Below, in pieces: positions 2,700 to 14,436 of a DNA stretch of 20,913 nucleotides. The DNA is from a virus. Where the stretch lies: the IMG/VR virus record IMGVR_UViG_3300042865_000689, positions 1 to 20,913 of that record; one strand, given 5' to 3'. The number at the start of each line of letters is the position of its first letter. Positions within the stretch are counted from its first letter, which is position 1. The position numbers and the translations under genes were made by a program. Under the pieces are notes generated by a model. The model did no database searches, was not told the origin of the DNA, and was given only the letters and a program-made list of their open reading frames with translations.

Positions 2700-5600
2700 T
2701 TAAATATTCTCAAACGAAGCACCTGTTGGGGTGATATAGAAAGTAATATCTATAAATTCTAACGAACGAGTTGGTTTAATATATATTTTACCTGTCAATT
2801 GGTTTCTATCCAAATCTGCAGGGTCTGAAGAAACCGTTACACGGAAATCATACAAACCTCTATCTCTTCTGATAGCATCTAATATTGGATTGACAGCATC
2901 TAAGAAATCTTGTCTTACTTTTTCGTCATTTTGTTCGAACAACAATCTAACTGAAACTGCAGATATAAGTTTTCTTGCTTGTAATAACAATCTTCTTACG
3001 TTGATTCTATCAAGAGCAGATTCTCTAATTTGCATAGTTTTGTTACCCCAAATAACTGTTCCTACATCAGAGAAAGTTGCGATTGGATTAATTCTACCTT
3101 TGTATAGAGTATCTCTTTCTTCTTGTGTAAGTTTTCTTCTCGCTTTGATTGCGTTAACAATACCTCTTGTATAACCTGCCGCAGCAAACCAAGGGAAAGC
3201 AATATTATCAGTTAAAGCTAAGTTTCTACAAACCTCAGCAGTTGGTGGTATATAGATTTGTGTATTGTTAACAGTATCTCTTGTTAATACCCAAGGATAG
3301 TAAGTTGCCGTGTAGTTAGAATCTATACCCGCAGTTTCTAAGTTATCAACAGCTTCTTGTGGATAAATAACATCAGTTTGTTCACCCGTTGTTGGTACTA
3401 ACATATTGTAGTCAGGTGTTGTTGTGATGTAAATTGAGTCAGCTCTATCAAATTCTATCATTTCTATTGCTGCTTCTACAAGGTTACTATTGTTTACATA
3501 ATCAATACCTGTTGTTACGAATACATTTATATTAACCGCTTCAGGATTTTGGAATGTTTGTTGACCTAACAAGTAAGCGTAATAGTCAGTATTAGCATAA
3601 TCTTGAGTTGTATTCCCAACTGTTATTGTTTTGAATGCACCCCATCCTGTTGCTGTTGGATATCTGAACGATGGACATGCACCTCTTAAATAACCACTTC
3701 TACCCAAAATAAAGTTATCGGCATTAGTTCTACGTTCTCTGTAGATGTCCCAACCATCGAAACCACCTGAGCACAAGAAACTAAATTTACGTGCAAATAT
3801 TCTGTAGTAAGGATTTGTTTCATCACTAGGGTCACTTGTGAATGTACCACTACCAACATAAAACTCAGCAGTACCACTTGTAGTAAACGAGTTAGCTATA
3901 GTAATACCTGAAGCGTCTTTATCCATATGGAAACCTTTTGTTCTATAAGACCAATCAGCCCCAGTAGTTGCATCACAGATACTTGAACCTGGTAAACGTT
4001 TTCCTTTGTAAGTGAAGAAATCAACATCGTAACCAACTGTATCAGAAATACCTAAATATGTTCTTCTAACATTGTCACCAGCACTTCTTAAAGCATCATC
4101 AGCACCTGAAGCTAACCCGAAAGGTGGATTGTATACAACTTCACCAGGGAAATCATATTTAGTTTTGTAAATTGGGAATGGTGATTTTGCACCAGCATAT
4201 TCTCTCATATTGTAACCAACGAAACCACAAGGTAAAGCATCGATTGGTGCATCTTCATTAATCTCTAACATTACAAATTTGGAGTTCAAAGCATATTCAC
4301 CATCTTTAGTTCCAATTTTTTTAGCTATGAAATTATTTTCATTAGGATTCATTGAACAATTTGTAAATTTCTCTAATACAACAGGATTTGAATCACTATC
4401 AAAGAAATCTCTAATTTGAACATCAAAAGTACCATTATTGAATGACATATTTGCCATAGAAATTTTTACTTCTGTATTTGCAGCATCCCCATCAGCTATC
4501 GTTGTAAATCTGAATAGATTAAATACTTTGTTACCTCTAAGTTCAGAAACAACCCATGGAGAAACTGGTGATTGGTATCTTTCTAAGTAGAAAGCTATTG
4601 AAGTTGCGTCTACCTCTTGTCTTGCATTTGGTAATGCAATCAAGTCACAATTCAAACCTCTAATGTAACCTTTTCTATAACCATAGTTTAATAATGATTG
4701 GAACCTTTCTTCTACAAACAATGGTGTTGTTGCTCTTGGTTTTGCAAAGTTACTTGAACCGAATACTTTAGCAATATACTTAGGGTCTGAATTAGTAAAT
4801 GATGTTTCGAAAGTAAAGTTATCACCATCTTTATTAGTAACATTAAGTGCAAATGTTGAATATGGATTTTTAGTAACCGCTGAATATGTGCCAGTACAAT
4901 CCATACTAACGTCAGTTAATCCACTGACCTCATATACGGCACCATTATCTGTACCATAAGTTGCAATACCTCTTGAACGTAGTGTTGCTATTACCAAGTC
5001 ATCATAATCTGTATATGCTGTACCACTATAAATGTATATGTTACCAGTTATACTACCACTATAACAATTAGTGATTGTACCTGTTTGAATTGTTCCTGTA
5101 TTACTTGTTGTACAAACACCACATGGGTCTGTGAAAAGTAAATTAATAGTCCAAGCTGAAGTTGCTGTCAAATCGTCAGATACTATTGTATATGATTTAG
5201 TCAAAGAACTAAAATTATAACCAACTGTTGTTGCCGATTGTACCACACCACCACTTGTTATACCACTTAATGCTGGGTTAGTACAAGCACTGAAATTAAT
5301 AGTCATTGCAGTTACGTCAGCTGTAGTTGCTGTGGATGGAAGACAAACATTAATTACATTTGTATTGTAATTGATTGCACCTGTAACTGTAGTGATAGTT
5401 GGAGAACTTACTGAGTAACTATAAAATGATGCACAATTTGATAACGATGATGTTAGTGTTAAACTATTAACATAATCGTAAAAAGAATAACCCGAATATT
5501 GACCATTTCCAATATTATCAAAAGTTGCATAATACCAAGTATCATTAACGGCTGCAGTATAGTCGGCCAAATCCGAACTAATGTTATCAACACCAAACAC

Positions 5601-6293
5601 ATTATTTTGAGAAGTGTACCCTGATAATAATGTATCAATAGTTCCACCTGATACTATACCAAAATAGTTTATTGATGTTGCTGATGTTGATGGGGTGTTT
5701 AAAATATTGAATAACTGATTTTTTATATCAGAATCAATCGTTGAGGTTGACCCATTAAATAACTCATATGTACTATATAAGTCACCCGATAGAAGTGCCG
5801 GTATTGATGTTGTGTATGAAATAGAGTTAATACTATTTGTACAACCAGTAAAATTGATTGTATAACTACTAACTTTAAATTCAACACATTGTGTAATACA
5901 ACTTACAGTTGAAGCACTTGAACAATCAAACCCAACAGTTGATTGGTCAACATTAGCAACCGTAGATATAGACCAAGAAGGTCCTGCATCATAACCTGAT
6001 AACCCAAGAATTCTTGTTACGAATAATTGGTTAGATTGTTGTAAGTATGCTTTGGCTACATAAGCGGCTTCATACTTTGGTATTTGAGTGTTTATAAATT
6101 TCTCAGGGGAAGTACCACCGAAATACGTTGTGAATTCGTCAAAGTTTGTAATAAAAATAGGTTCGAAGGCTGGACCTTTCAAGGTTTCACCAACAATACC
6201 AAGAGTTGTTACGCCCACACTTTGTGACACAAAACTTAAATCGACCTCAGAAGTATAGACACCAGGAGATACGAAAACTTTACTGTTTGACAT
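2700..6293 (-). CDS. Contractile tail sheath protein (T4 gp18-like) with a large insertion
   Basis: This is the subunit of the outer sheath that contracts to drive the tail tube through the host envelope. Residues 1-100 are typical of gp18: 'VFVSPGVYTSEVD', then 'GIVGETLKGPAFEP' and 'YVAKAYLQQSNQLFVTRIL'. Residues about 940-1197 form the conserved core and C-terminus: 'IEFDRADSIYITTTPDYN', 'YYPWVLTRD', 'AFPWFAAAGYTRG', 'LTQEERDTLY' and 'RINVRRLLLQARK'. At 1197 aa it is nearly twice T4 gp18 (659 aa). Most of the excess is residues about 104-475, a Ser/Thr/Asn-rich, beta-like stretch with 11 cysteines and a repeated motif TINF(T/S)(G/A)CTN (145-153 and 331-339). This part is probably exposed on the tail surface. 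The ATG lies about 30 nt after a box. The gene follows two joining-protein genes, the usual neighbourhood of gp18, and ends at a strong terminator. Confidence 0.95.
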   Translation of the reverse strand: MSNSKVFVSPGVYTSEVDLSFVSQSVGVTTLGIVGETLKGPAFEPIFITNFDEFTTYFGGTSPEKFINTQIPKYEAAYVAKAYLQQSNQLFVTRILGLSGYDAGPSWSISTVANVDQSTVGFDCSSASTVSCITQCVEFKVSSYTINFTGCTNSINSISYTTSIPALLSGDLYSTYELFNGSTSTIDSDIKNQLFNILNTPSTSATSINYFGIVSGGTIDTLLSGYTSQNNVFGVDNISSDLADYTAAVNDTWYYATFDNIGNGQYSGYSFYDYVNSLTLTSSLSNCASFYSYSVSSPTITTVTGAINYNTNVINVCLPSTATTADVTAMTINFSACTNPALSGITSGGVVQSATTVGYNFSSLTKSYTIVSDDLTATSAWTINLLFTDPCGVCTTSNTGTIQTGTITNCYSGSITGNIYIYSGTAYTDYDDLVIATLRSRGIATYGTDNGAVYEVSGLTDVSMDCTGTYSAVTKNPYSTFALNVTNKDGDNFTFETSFTNSDPKYIAKVFGSSNFAKPRATTPLFVEERFQSLLNYGYRKGYIRGLNCDLIALPNARQEVDATSIAFYLERYQSPVSPWVVSELRGNKVFNLFRFTTIADGDAANTEVKISMANMSFNNGTFDVQIRDFFDSDSNPVVLEKFTNCSMNPNENNFIAKKIGTKDGEYALNSKFVMLEINEDAPIDALPCGFVGYNMREYAGAKSPFPIYKTKYDFPGEVVYNPPFGLASGADDALRSAGDNVRRTYLGISDTVGYDVDFFTYKGKRLPGSSICDATTGADWSYRTKGFHMDKDASGITIANSFTTSGTAEFYVGSGTFTSDPSDETNPYYRIFARKFSFLCSGGFDGWDIYRERRTNADNFILGRSGYLRGACPSFRYPTATGWGAFKTITVGNTTQDYANTDYYAYLLGQQTFQNPEAVNINVFVTTGIDYVNNSNLVEAAIEMIEFDRADSIYITTTPDYNMLVPTTGEQTDVIYPQEAVDNLETAGIDSNYTATYYPWVLTRDTVNNTQIYIPPTAEVCRNLALTDNIAFPWFAAAGYTRGIVNAIKARRKLTQEERDTLYKGRINPIATFSDVGTVIWGNKTMQIRESALDRINVRRLLLQARKLISAVSVRLLFEQNDEKVRQDFLDAVNPILDAIRRDRGLYDFRVTVSSDPADLDRNQLTGKIYIKPTRSLEFIDITFYITPTGASFENI

Positions 6294-9938: not shown

Positions 9939-9948
9939 TATTTATGAG

Positions 9949-9957
9949 ATATTTATA
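9949..9957 (+). promoter_or_regulatory. ATATTTATA box that decides the start of the dismutase-nuclease gene
   Basis: GATATTTATATCTTATGG places the box five bases before the ATG at 9962. An earlier in-frame ATG at 9944 lies upstream of the box within another TATTTATG, so it is the less likely start. Confidence 0.5.
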
Positions 9958-9961
9958 TCTT

Positions 9962-12580
9962 ATGGAAAGAGCAGCAAATTTACTTAAAGAAATAATATTA
10001 ACTAAAGAAGATATATTATCTGAAGCAAAAAAAATTGGTATTGATAAATTACCATTTGGATATCGTTCAATTAGTAGTTTCATCGATGGAAAAACGATGG
10101 ATATACATTACAACAAACATTATAAAGGTTATGTTGATAAATTGAATAAAGCCTTATCTAAAAAGAACTATGGTGATGTTGAATTGGAGAACATTATTAA
10201 ATCCATTTCGAAGTATAATAAAACAATAAGGAATAATGCTGGTGGTGCTTTTAATCATGCTTTATTTTGGAAAATGTTGTCCCCAAAAAAACAAGAAATA
10301 CCAACTGAGATAAAAAACAAAATTATTAAAGATTTCGGTTCAATTAATACATTCAAAAAAGAATTCACCGAAATAGCAAAGGATAGATTTGGTTCAGGTT
10401 GGTGTTGGTTAATATTGACAAAAAACAACAGACTTAAAATTATGTCAACACCCAACCAAGACAATCCACTAATGAACATAGTTGATGGGGGTGGATTTCC
10501 TATTCTTGGTCTTGATGTATGGGAACACGCATATTATCTCAAATATCAAAACAAAAGAGATGAATATATTGAAAATTTTTGGGATGTTGTCAATTGGGAG
10601 TTTGTTAATAAATTATATACAGATAAAAAGAAAACTAAGTTAACTGAATCAGTTAAAACTAAAAAATTAATCAAAGAAGAAGTTGAGGTATTAAACCCAA
10701 ACGGAAGACTAAATCCTATTTTTGTTCAAACAATATTGAAGAAAGTTTATCCAAAATGTTCTCCTGAAATTATTAGGGATTACAATCCTGATACTCGTAT
10801 TGAATCACCTTGTTATGGTAAAATCCAAACTGAGTTATGTAAAACAAACTATGGTGTTATTGGTGGAAAATATGCTGTAAGTCAAAGGGGTGGAACTGGT
10901 GAATGGTCGGTTGTTAATTGGTTTGATGCTAACACTCGAATTAGTGATAAGATATTAGAGTTTTATGAAAAATATAATAGTAAAAACTATGATTTGGAAA
11001 CTTGGTTTAATATTATGGGAAAAACTCTGTTTGGTGATGAGGGAAAGTTTACCAATAGTTTGGCAAATATAGTTTTAAATCCAAAAACAAAAAAAGGAAC
11101 TTTGGATAGAGGTATTGAAAGGGAAAAAATTGCGATTGAAATATTCAACACTAAAAACAAAAATTCACAAATAACACAATTTTGTGATGGTGATACAAGG
11201 GACAAGTATAAAGGACAAGATATGTTTGTAACCGAAGATGGTGTAAGTAAATACGTTCAGGTTAAACCAACTACGGATTTATATGAAACGAGGGACAAAC
11301 AAGGTAATACTATCTATATCTTCAAAAGTAAAAATGTATATAATACAAATAATATTCAAATTTTTGCATTTGTTGATGATAAAAATAACTATATATTTTT
11401 TGATTTTAATGAGGTTGATATTGAGGATGGTGGAACACAATCAAAAGAAAGATATTCTTACGTTTTTAATTCAAAAAATAAAAAATTCCAATCCCAATTT
11501 TTAAAATTAAAAAAAATTAACATTACTGAAAATATGAACTCAACAATAATAATAACTAAAGAACAAGCTCAAATAATGAATTTTTTAATATCCGAGGACA
11601 TTAAGATTAATAATAATCAGTTAGATATTAATAGTATCATTAAAAGAGAATTACAAAAGTTAAGACCTATTCCCACTGAAATGAATGCGGCTAAAGAAGC
11701 AATTAATAATATTGTAACAGCTGAAATAAGTCGTGGTAAGTTAAATTTTAGTAGAACAATTGATTCTTTATTTAATTTAAACTTATCAACAGTTTCGGAC
11801 AGAAATAAATATAGGTTCAATAACTACTATTATAGATTTTATAGAAGTAGAACGAGAGGTTTAGATTTTGAAGGTTTAATTTCCGGTTTAATTGATGGAG
11901 ATATTTCTGAAGACATTAATTCTCCATATGATTTGATTACAAAAGATGGAAAAAAAATATCTATAAAAATAGTAAGAAATTTAAGTGAAAGTCCTGTATT
12001 GAAATCAGCAAAAGGAAATATACAAAGTTTTATCGAGAATTATAATGGTTCTGATGAAAACAAACAAATGTTGATTACACAAGCAAAAAATGAAAATCTT
12101 CTAAGTTTTTTAATAAGTTCGGGTAACAACGATTATATAAATATTGCTGAGGATTTAGTTGATTTCATACTACCTGACATTGATGGATTATTAATCGGTG
12201 TTCCCAACGAGAATTTTAACATCGACTTATTTTATTTTGACAGAGAGGGAATTAAATCGTTGGCTTTAGAACCTGGTAATTTAGGTGCACCAAAAACCAA
12301 AGGGTCACAACAGATTAGATTCAAAAAATCAGTTTTCCAAAAAACACCAAGTGAAGGAAATAGATTGGTTGGAAAAATATATTTCCCAATAATCTCAGAA
12401 CAAGAATATATTGATTTTTTAGTTGGTAATGAAAAAACAAAAGAAACATTATCATTACTTAATCGTTTTGGGAGTAAGTACAACATAAGAAACTTAGGTG
12501 GTAATATACCACAAGATATTATCCATAGTTTGTCTGACAACGAAAACTTCAAACAAGACATACTTAATTTGTTGGATTGA
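9962..12580 (+). CDS. Mn-type superoxide dismutase fused to two PD-(D/E)XK nuclease-like modules
   Basis: An 872-aa fusion (878 if ATG 9944 is used). Residues about 25-220 are a complete Fe/Mn superoxide dismutase. The four metal ligands are present: H49 (MDIHYNKH), H99 (FNHALFW), D185 and H189 (LDVWEHAYYLKYQNKRDEY). 'NNAGGAFNH' and Q166 in 'TPNQDNPLM' are the Mn-type/cambialistic pattern. The linker, about 226-245 (KLTESVKTKKLIKEEV), resembles the charged ends of other small phage proteins. The rest has two nuclease-like patterns. Module 1 has E386, D420 in KGQDMFV and QVK (433-435). Module 2 has E637, D657 in SPYDLITKDG and SIK (667-669). The C-terminal third (about 700-872) is unassigned. 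The frame is open throughout with uniform codon use, so I see no sign of a broken junction. It follows the SNF2 helicase by 23 nt, which could pair helicase with nuclease. The dismutase call is firm; the nuclease calls are moderate. Confidence 0.85.
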   Translation: MERAANLLKEIILTKEDILSEAKKIGIDKLPFGYRSISSFIDGKTMDIHYNKHYKGYVDKLNKALSKKNYGDVELENIIKSISKYNKTIRNNAGGAFNHALFWKMLSPKKQEIPTEIKNKIIKDFGSINTFKKEFTEIAKDRFGSGWCWLILTKNNRLKIMSTPNQDNPLMNIVDGGGFPILGLDVWEHAYYLKYQNKRDEYIENFWDVVNWEFVNKLYTDKKKTKLTESVKTKKLIKEEVEVLNPNGRLNPIFVQTILKKVYPKCSPEIIRDYNPDTRIESPCYGKIQTELCKTNYGVIGGKYAVSQRGGTGEWSVVNWFDANTRISDKILEFYEKYNSKNYDLETWFNIMGKTLFGDEGKFTNSLANIVLNPKTKKGTLDRGIEREKIAIEIFNTKNKNSQITQFCDGDTRDKYKGQDMFVTEDGVSKYVQVKPTTDLYETRDKQGNTIYIFKSKNVYNTNNIQIFAFVDDKNNYIFFDFNEVDIEDGGTQSKERYSYVFNSKNKKFQSQFLKLKKINITENMNSTIIITKEQAQIMNFLISEDIKINNNQLDINSIIKRELQKLRPIPTEMNAAKEAINNIVTAEISRGKLNFSRTIDSLFNLNLSTVSDRNKYRFNNYYYRFYRSRTRGLDFEGLISGLIDGDISEDINSPYDLITKDGKKISIKIVRNLSESPVLKSAKGNIQSFIENYNGSDENKQMLITQAKNENLLSFLISSGNNDYINIAEDLVDFILPDIDGLLIGVPNENFNIDLFYFDREGIKSLALEPGNLGAPKTKGSQQIRFKKSVFQKTPSEGNRLVGKIYFPIISEQEYIDFLVGNEKTKETLSLLNRFGSKYNIRNLGGNIPQDIIHSLSDNENFKQDILNLLD

Positions 12581-14157: not shown

Positions 14158-14436
14158 ATGAAAAAAGTAGTAAAAATAACAGAAAAAGATTTATCAAAAC
14201 TAACTAAGAAAGTTGTTACTGAACTTGAACGAGTTTATGGTCATTCAGAAATAGACAAATTGTACTCAAGACTTGGTGATGATGAAGATGTACAATTGGA
14301 TGATTCATCGGGTGAGTTGTCAGGTAAAATAACAAAAAAGGTTGATATCGTTATAGATTTGCTTGAACAAGGTATCAGAAAAAAAGATTGGGTTAAAGTA
14401 TCCCGAGCATTATCGTACTTAGAGACAAAGTTTTAA
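14158..14436 (+). CDS. Hypothetical 92-aa charged helical protein
   Basis: I do not recognise this protein. It begins 'MKKVVKITEKDLSKLTKKVV' and has a short acidic centre (GDDEDVQLDDSSG, about 40-52). It ends with an amphipathic 'KVDIVIDLLEQGIRKKDWVK' and 'VSRALSYLETKF', which look like a helix-turn-helix-hairpin of tetratricopeptide-like size. There is no membrane segment or enzyme motif. It has its own box and a terminator on either side, so it is a single-gene unit. The lysine-rich N-terminus resembles that of other small proteins here. Confidence 0.65.
   Translation: MKKVVKITEKDLSKLTKKVVTELERVYGHSEIDKLYSRLGDDEDVQLDDSSGELSGKITKKVDIVIDLLEQGIRKKDWVKVSRALSYLETKF

Follow-up and report, generated by a model that had tools for sequence, protein, structure and literature searches.

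The window analyzed here, the whole 20,913-nucleotide stretch of IMG/VR virus record IMGVR_UViG_3300042865_000689, comes from a T4-like phage whose host is probably a member of Bacteroidota. It carries an uninterrupted open frame on the plus strand (positions 9944 to 12580, 878 amino acids), in which a superoxide dismutase (SOD) is followed by two predicted nuclease-like modules, A and B. The ATG at position 9962, also used in the initial annotation, is the preferred start because the relatives on contigs L009, L013, and L109 begin at the corresponding Met residue. The features of the locus, with arrows marking predicted cuts and residues numbered in the 872-residue product, are as follows.

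9944, plus strand: alternative in-frame upstream ATG of the SOD-A-B gene (product of 878 aa)
9962..12580, plus strand: gene for the predicted SOD-A-B polyprotein (872 aa; open frame, identical in 5 other contigs)
9962..10024, plus strand: capsid-targeting-like tag at the N terminus, MERAANLLKEIILTKEDILSE, with a cut predicted after Glu21 (ILSE↓AKKIG)
10043..10612, plus strand: Mn/Fe superoxide dismutase domain (Pfam PF00081 and PF02777; PDB 6gsc, 3.8e-64; all metal ligands)
10640..10678, plus strand: linker 1, predicted sites LTE↓S (Glu229) and IKE↓E (Glu239) (conserved motif, low pLDDT)
10679..11521, plus strand: module A, predicted PD-(D/E)XK nuclease-like domain (AF2, Foldseek, 19-sequence alignment)
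11522..11596, plus strand: linker 2, predicted sites ITE↓N (Glu523) and ISE↓D (Glu545) (swap in L006, tag in L213, pLDDT of <50)
11612..12577, plus strand: module B, predicted restriction-endonuclease-like domain (AF2, Foldseek, 27-sequence alignment)
14158..14436, plus strand: small neighboring protein with a similar N-terminal tag, MKKVVKITEKDLSKLTKKVVTE (sequence; tag enrichment in a sister genome)

The initial annotation of this DNA described an in-frame fusion of an SOD to the downstream modules, and the fusion is borne out: a stop codon or frameshift near codon 240 that would split the frame into two genes was looked for and is absent, and an identical 878-aa open reading frame (ORF) is found in 5 further IMG/VR contigs. 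Contig L004 is 98.65% identical to the window across 8 kb and so represents this phage species in a record of its own. The identical ORFs and the similarity of L004 together exclude a sequencing artifact.

Judged by its sequence, the SOD part is a complete Mn/Fe superoxide dismutase. Residues 34 to 223 of the 878-aa frame match the Pfam domains Sod_Fe_N (PF00081, 1.2e-19) and Sod_Fe_C (PF02777, 5e-40), and the metal ligands His49, His99, Asp185, and His189, as well as the Mn-type second-sphere residue Gln166, align with those of solved Mn-type SODs, including 6gsc, in agreement with the earlier assignment of a complete Mn-type enzyme with four ligands and the Gln. The Pfam search of the 878-aa frame gave no match beyond residue 223, so that the SOD alone is recognized. 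Likewise, matches in cellular genomes are confined to the SOD region, the best of them being in Bacteroidota.

Modules A and B are predicted to adopt PD-(D/E)XK nuclease folds. The AF2 model of module A, built from 19 sequences, has a pLDDT of 83.9, and its best Foldseek matches in the PDB, with weak E values of 0.025 to 0.046, are the PD-(D/E)XK homing endonuclease I-Ssp6803I (probability of 0.97) and the Hjc Holliday-junction resolvases (0.85). In the viral library, the same module matched A0A6J5L953, a phage protein of 501 aa that was deposited under the name “superoxide dismutase” (E value of 1.3e-6), as well as a phage entry titled “PD(D/E)XK endonuclease domain-containing protein” (2.8e-4). 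The model of module B, built from 27 sequences, has a pLDDT of 88.2 and a pTM of 0.84; it matches the restriction endonuclease with DNA in PDB entry 3ndh (probability of 0.97) and Eco15I_Ntd (1.00), the probabilities for 3ndh, Eco15I_Ntd, and NhoI ranging from 0.91 to 1.00 with weak E values of 0.012 to 0.037. Eco15I_Ntd and NhoI are catalytic domains of the BisI family (PMC11347163).

The alignments agree with the models. Residues Glu388, Asp420, and Gln433-x-Lys435 are invariant among the 19 sequences of module A, down to about 24% identity, so that this module combines a restriction-endonuclease-like fold in the model with conserved E, D, and (E/Q)xK residues in the alignment. In the 27-sequence alignment of module B, the invariant residues are Glu637, Asp657, and Ser667-x-Lys669; here, Ser occupies the (D/E) place of (D/E)xK, and E, D, and K are invariant. 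Of the two PD-(D/E)XK-like patterns proposed in the initial annotation, D420/QVK and E637/D657/SIK thus stand, whereas E386 was misassigned, the invariant Glu being E388. The restriction-endonuclease-like fold expected there was recovered in the AF2 model of module A and is suggested by that of module B, with weak PDB E values in both cases. A profile search of each module had also been proposed, and it recognized the SOD in Pfam but no nuclease family for A or B: no convincing nuclease or defense family was found for the two modules in profile searches against the PDB or for the window and module sequences in Pfam, PHROGs, PADLOC, and NCBIfam. In summary, modules A and B are predicted to share the fold and the catalytic-residue pattern of PD-(D/E)XK nucleases such as I-Ssp6803I, Hjc, 3ndh, and the BisI family members Eco15I and NhoI, but have no similarity to them that is detectable by PDB sequence-profile search, and module B differs from such nucleases in carrying Ser-x-Lys instead of (D/E)-x-Lys.

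The fusion belongs to a large and variable family. Viral contigs were searched with the complete protein and its individual modules; with partial ORFs counted, this revealed more than 100 distinct related fusions in T4-like phages. The most common architectures are MP-SOD-A' (44 distinct proteins), MP-SOD-B (33), and SOD-D (22); the rarer ones are SOD-A-C and SOD-A-A' (5 each), SOD-A (3), SOD-A-B, the type found in the window (2), and MP-SOD-C (1), and two genes encode stand-alone A' modules. MP denotes a 130-residue N-terminal domain, present in most homologs, that may be regarded as protease-like on the strength of its HEWVH motif. In the annotated phage collection, no record covers most of the SOD-A-B protein, and among the records listed for the isolated T4-like phages nearest by capsid protein (Flavobacterium phage immuto), there was no SOD match. 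The initial annotation knew of no described phage protein with this architecture, and indeed we found no paper on phage SOD-nuclease fusions, nor one on enzyme polyproteins cut at prohead-protease sites, in the open-access literature. However, A0A6J5L953 is probably a SOD-D version of the protein, as indicated by its length, name, and structural match.

Comparison of relatives shows where the modules are exchanged. The DNA of L006 is 94% identical to the window up to position 11530, where the Glu523 codon ends; the rest of the gene encodes an unrelated module, C, and the similarity returns past the end of the gene. In L213, module A' has a gene to itself, which carries a tag, MKYIFTESQLDILKNKILINED, and is located directly 3' of a SOD-D gene; in L109, SOD-A-C is followed downstream by another tagged gene, which contains a HELAH protease motif. 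The SOD, A, and B domains are all under purifying selection, with estimated dN/dS values between the window and L009 of about 0.03, 0.10, and 0.05, respectively.

The initial annotation overlooked an (L/I)xE motif, the specificity of the T4 prohead protease, at every module border. In T4, the prohead protease gp21 cuts after L/I-X-E (PMC9026906), and cuts of this kind are predicted in the 872-aa chain after Glu21, Glu229, Glu239, Glu523, and Glu545. An [LIVMF]xE motif lies immediately N-terminal to the SOD in 70 of the 70 distinct homologs, with L or I at its first position in all 70, and [LIV]xE[STNDM] follows shortly after the SOD in 75 of 76, with at least 2 sites in 74 of the 76 linkers. 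When the homologs were dereplicated at 80% SOD identity, the site preceding the SOD was present in 13 of 13 lineages (shuffle mean of 1.6 and maximum of 6 in 2000 shuffles) and the one following it in 12 of 13 (mean of 0.95 and maximum of 5, also in 2000 shuffles). None of the 24 cellular SODs parsed has a post-SOD (L/I)xE site, these proteins ending 4 to 13 residues past the equivalent point. The motif is short, and a few copies of it also occur inside the modules. The linker stretches covered by the module A model (its start and linker 2) have pLDDT values below 50, and linker 2 resembles the N-terminal tag of stand-alone proteins such as the L213 A' protein. In the linker, the window and L009 are only 52% identical, yet the (L/V)xE sites hold the same places. 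Given these conserved sites and the exchange of a nuclease module at one of them, the parts are more likely to be separated than to act as a single chain. The earlier suggestion that oxidative chemistry would control a nuclease, or that the nuclease would be protected from it, within one protein thus finds no support, as the linker sites and the module swap favor separation.

This phage species also encodes a protease of matching type: the 194-kb contig that carries the identical gene has genes for a gp21-family protease (PF03420, 9.9e-24) and a gp23-family capsid protein (1.3e-64). In the N-terminal region of the latter, FLINE↓A aligns with FLTE↓A of a T4-like gp23, and T4 gp23 is cleaved at this point. 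Tag-like N termini are common in this genome, and the tag may thus not be specific to capsid cargo: [LI]xE[SANQ] is found within the first 30 residues of 24 of the 163 proteins of the sister genome, compared to 10.7 ± 3.0 in random internal stretches. This enrichment is real but modest.

Directly upstream of the gene lies the SNF2 helicase (PF00176, 7e-32) already recognized in the initial annotation. The gene neighbors comprise a tail sheath protein, a head-tail adaptor, a DNA polymerase, and the helicase, which led us to reject a restriction or defense island as an explanation of the locus. The tail sheath protein (positions 2700 to 6293, minus strand; 1197 aa) shows PHROG similarity in its C-terminal part (best stretch, residues 980 to 1195) and may hold a large insertion. 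Another minus-strand gene (1055 to 2611) encodes a protein of 507 to 518 aa with Cys-rich fingers, an EIDIF...GIEVNG stretch resembling Vsr/PD-(D/E)XK nucleases, and weak Pfam matches to Mom (3.6e-4), DUF7487, and a PvuRts1I-like N-terminal domain. The T4 late-promoter word TATAAATA occurs in 12 copies in the window, compared to 5.7 expected, a number reached in 0 of 100 shuffles; it is not clearly placed before the SOD-A-B gene and was dropped as evidence for it.

Taken together, these data suggest that the gene product is probably a modular cargo polyprotein that comprises capsid-internal “ejection” enzymes and is targeted and cut like the internal proteins of T4. Two hallmarks of T4-type capsid-internal proteins are present, namely, a tag ending in (L/I)xE (in 70 of 70 homologs) and a gp21-type protease in the genome. 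Capsid-targeting sequences would be provided by the tag at the N terminus and by the similar tags inside the chain, which would thereby be incorporated into the core of the prohead. As the head matures, the gp21-type protease would cut after the Glu of the (L/I)xE sites flanking the modules, freeing within the capsid a superoxide dismutase and two PD-(D/E)XK nucleases. These enzymes would then be ejected with the DNA, as happens with Alt and the internal proteins in T4. Once inside the new host, the nucleases could cleave the DNA of the host or of competitors, and the SOD could remove superoxide early in infection. This scheme builds on the fusion itself, the SOD residues, the nuclease-like folds, the border sites, the swap at one such site, and the protease and capsid processing site, from which we infer the packaging, cleavage, and ejection of the chain and the activities and targets of its enzymes. 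A nuclease that is packed beside the DNA of its own phage has to be held inactive. The phage genes include one for a C5 cytosine DNA methylase (L119:16613-17617 in sister contig G001; PF00145, 3.2e-57), which could possibly modify the phage's own DNA, shielding it from its own nucleases.

Alternatively, the protein could be produced in the infected cell and act as an uncut multidomain enzyme, whose nucleases would degrade host or rival DNA, with the attached SOD shielding phage replication from superoxide and the linkers acting as flexible tethers. The arrangement of SOD and then nuclease-like module in nearly all fusions could mean functional coupling, and the gene starts only a few bases after the helicase gene. 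Such an enzyme nevertheless seems unlikely, given that the (L/I)xE sites persist in a linker that otherwise varies and that the same motifs mark the N-terminal tags of neighboring genes and the processing site of the capsid protein. It is very unlikely that the chain is a polyvalent protein packaged uncut and then either injected whole as a multiweapon effector or processed by a metalloprotease, whether its own or a partner: most homologs do have the protease-like N-terminal domain with HEWVH, and polyvalent proteins often contain peptidase domains and can be packaged unprocessed (PMC5512222), but the window version lacks the HEWVH domain, and sites of gp21 specificity flank its SOD and the border between A and B. 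Finally, an assembly or frameshift artifact fusing two genes, in favor of which nothing was found, is exceedingly improbable in view of the same ORF in 5 other contigs, the more than 100 related fusions, and the purifying selection acting on all modules.

With regard to the cargo polyprotein, the evidence tips slightly toward a still broader interpretation, namely, that T4-like phages possess an exchangeable cargo cassette whose modules (protease-like, superoxide dismutase, and several different nucleases) would be swapped at prohead-protease sites, packed, cut, and injected, that the SOD would be an injected phage enzyme, and that the phage group carrying the cassette is widespread. If this is true, phage-head processing signals would constitute a general cargo system, and capsid-delivered enzymes should therefore be predictable from their (L/I)xE borders in uncultured phages. 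Superoxide would then be something that phages must handle in the first minutes of infection, and the modules would add new families of nucleases, with an exchange similar to that of polymorphic toxins.

Among known systems, the T4 internal proteins IPI to IPIII and Alt resemble the predicted polyprotein in having a short N-terminal tag that ends in an (L/I)xE site, a gp21-type protease in the same phage species, and a structural-gene neighborhood. Alt is processed at both ends, being trimmed at ITE and LTE (PMC5694885), and T4 tags can deliver foreign proteins in phage heads, including EcoRI endonuclease and staphylococcal nuclease (PMC9026906). However, the chain in the window, for which we infer packaging, holds two or three enzymes with sites between them, and these are an SOD and nucleases rather than the ADP-ribosyltransferase or small inhibitors of T4.

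SOD homologs are also found in other large phages with gp21-type proteases, but these are single-domain proteins without a nuclease. EST35_0261 of Pseudomonas phage PA5oct (L257:2956-3504) is a diverged SOD homolog annotated as a hypothetical protein and labeled ESI-MS/MS, and its N terminus, ISIAEA, resembles the T4 capsid-targeting sequence. The label was rejected as proof of packaging because it also marks ribonucleotide reductase, thymidylate synthase, and other nonvirion enzymes. The single-domain SOD of Vibrio phage 2.275.O (L256:2953-3522) ends in ...KMLDESVNIRHL, and its C terminus, KMLDESVNIRHLINFISK, resembles the post-SOD linker of the fusions.

The SOD-nuclease cargo appears to be new, and the nearest concept is that of polyvalent proteins (Iyer et al. 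2017, PMC5512222), a paper in which superoxide dismutase is unmentioned. In polyvalent proteins, unrelated enzymes are strung together in one phage polypeptide, many members contain peptidase-like domains, and injection with the DNA has been proposed; the disparate enzymes found here are the SOD and the two nuclease-like modules, with a peptidase-like domain in the relatives. In contrast to those of polyvalent proteins, the modules described here are of small size and can be exchanged, and prohead-protease sites lie at their borders.
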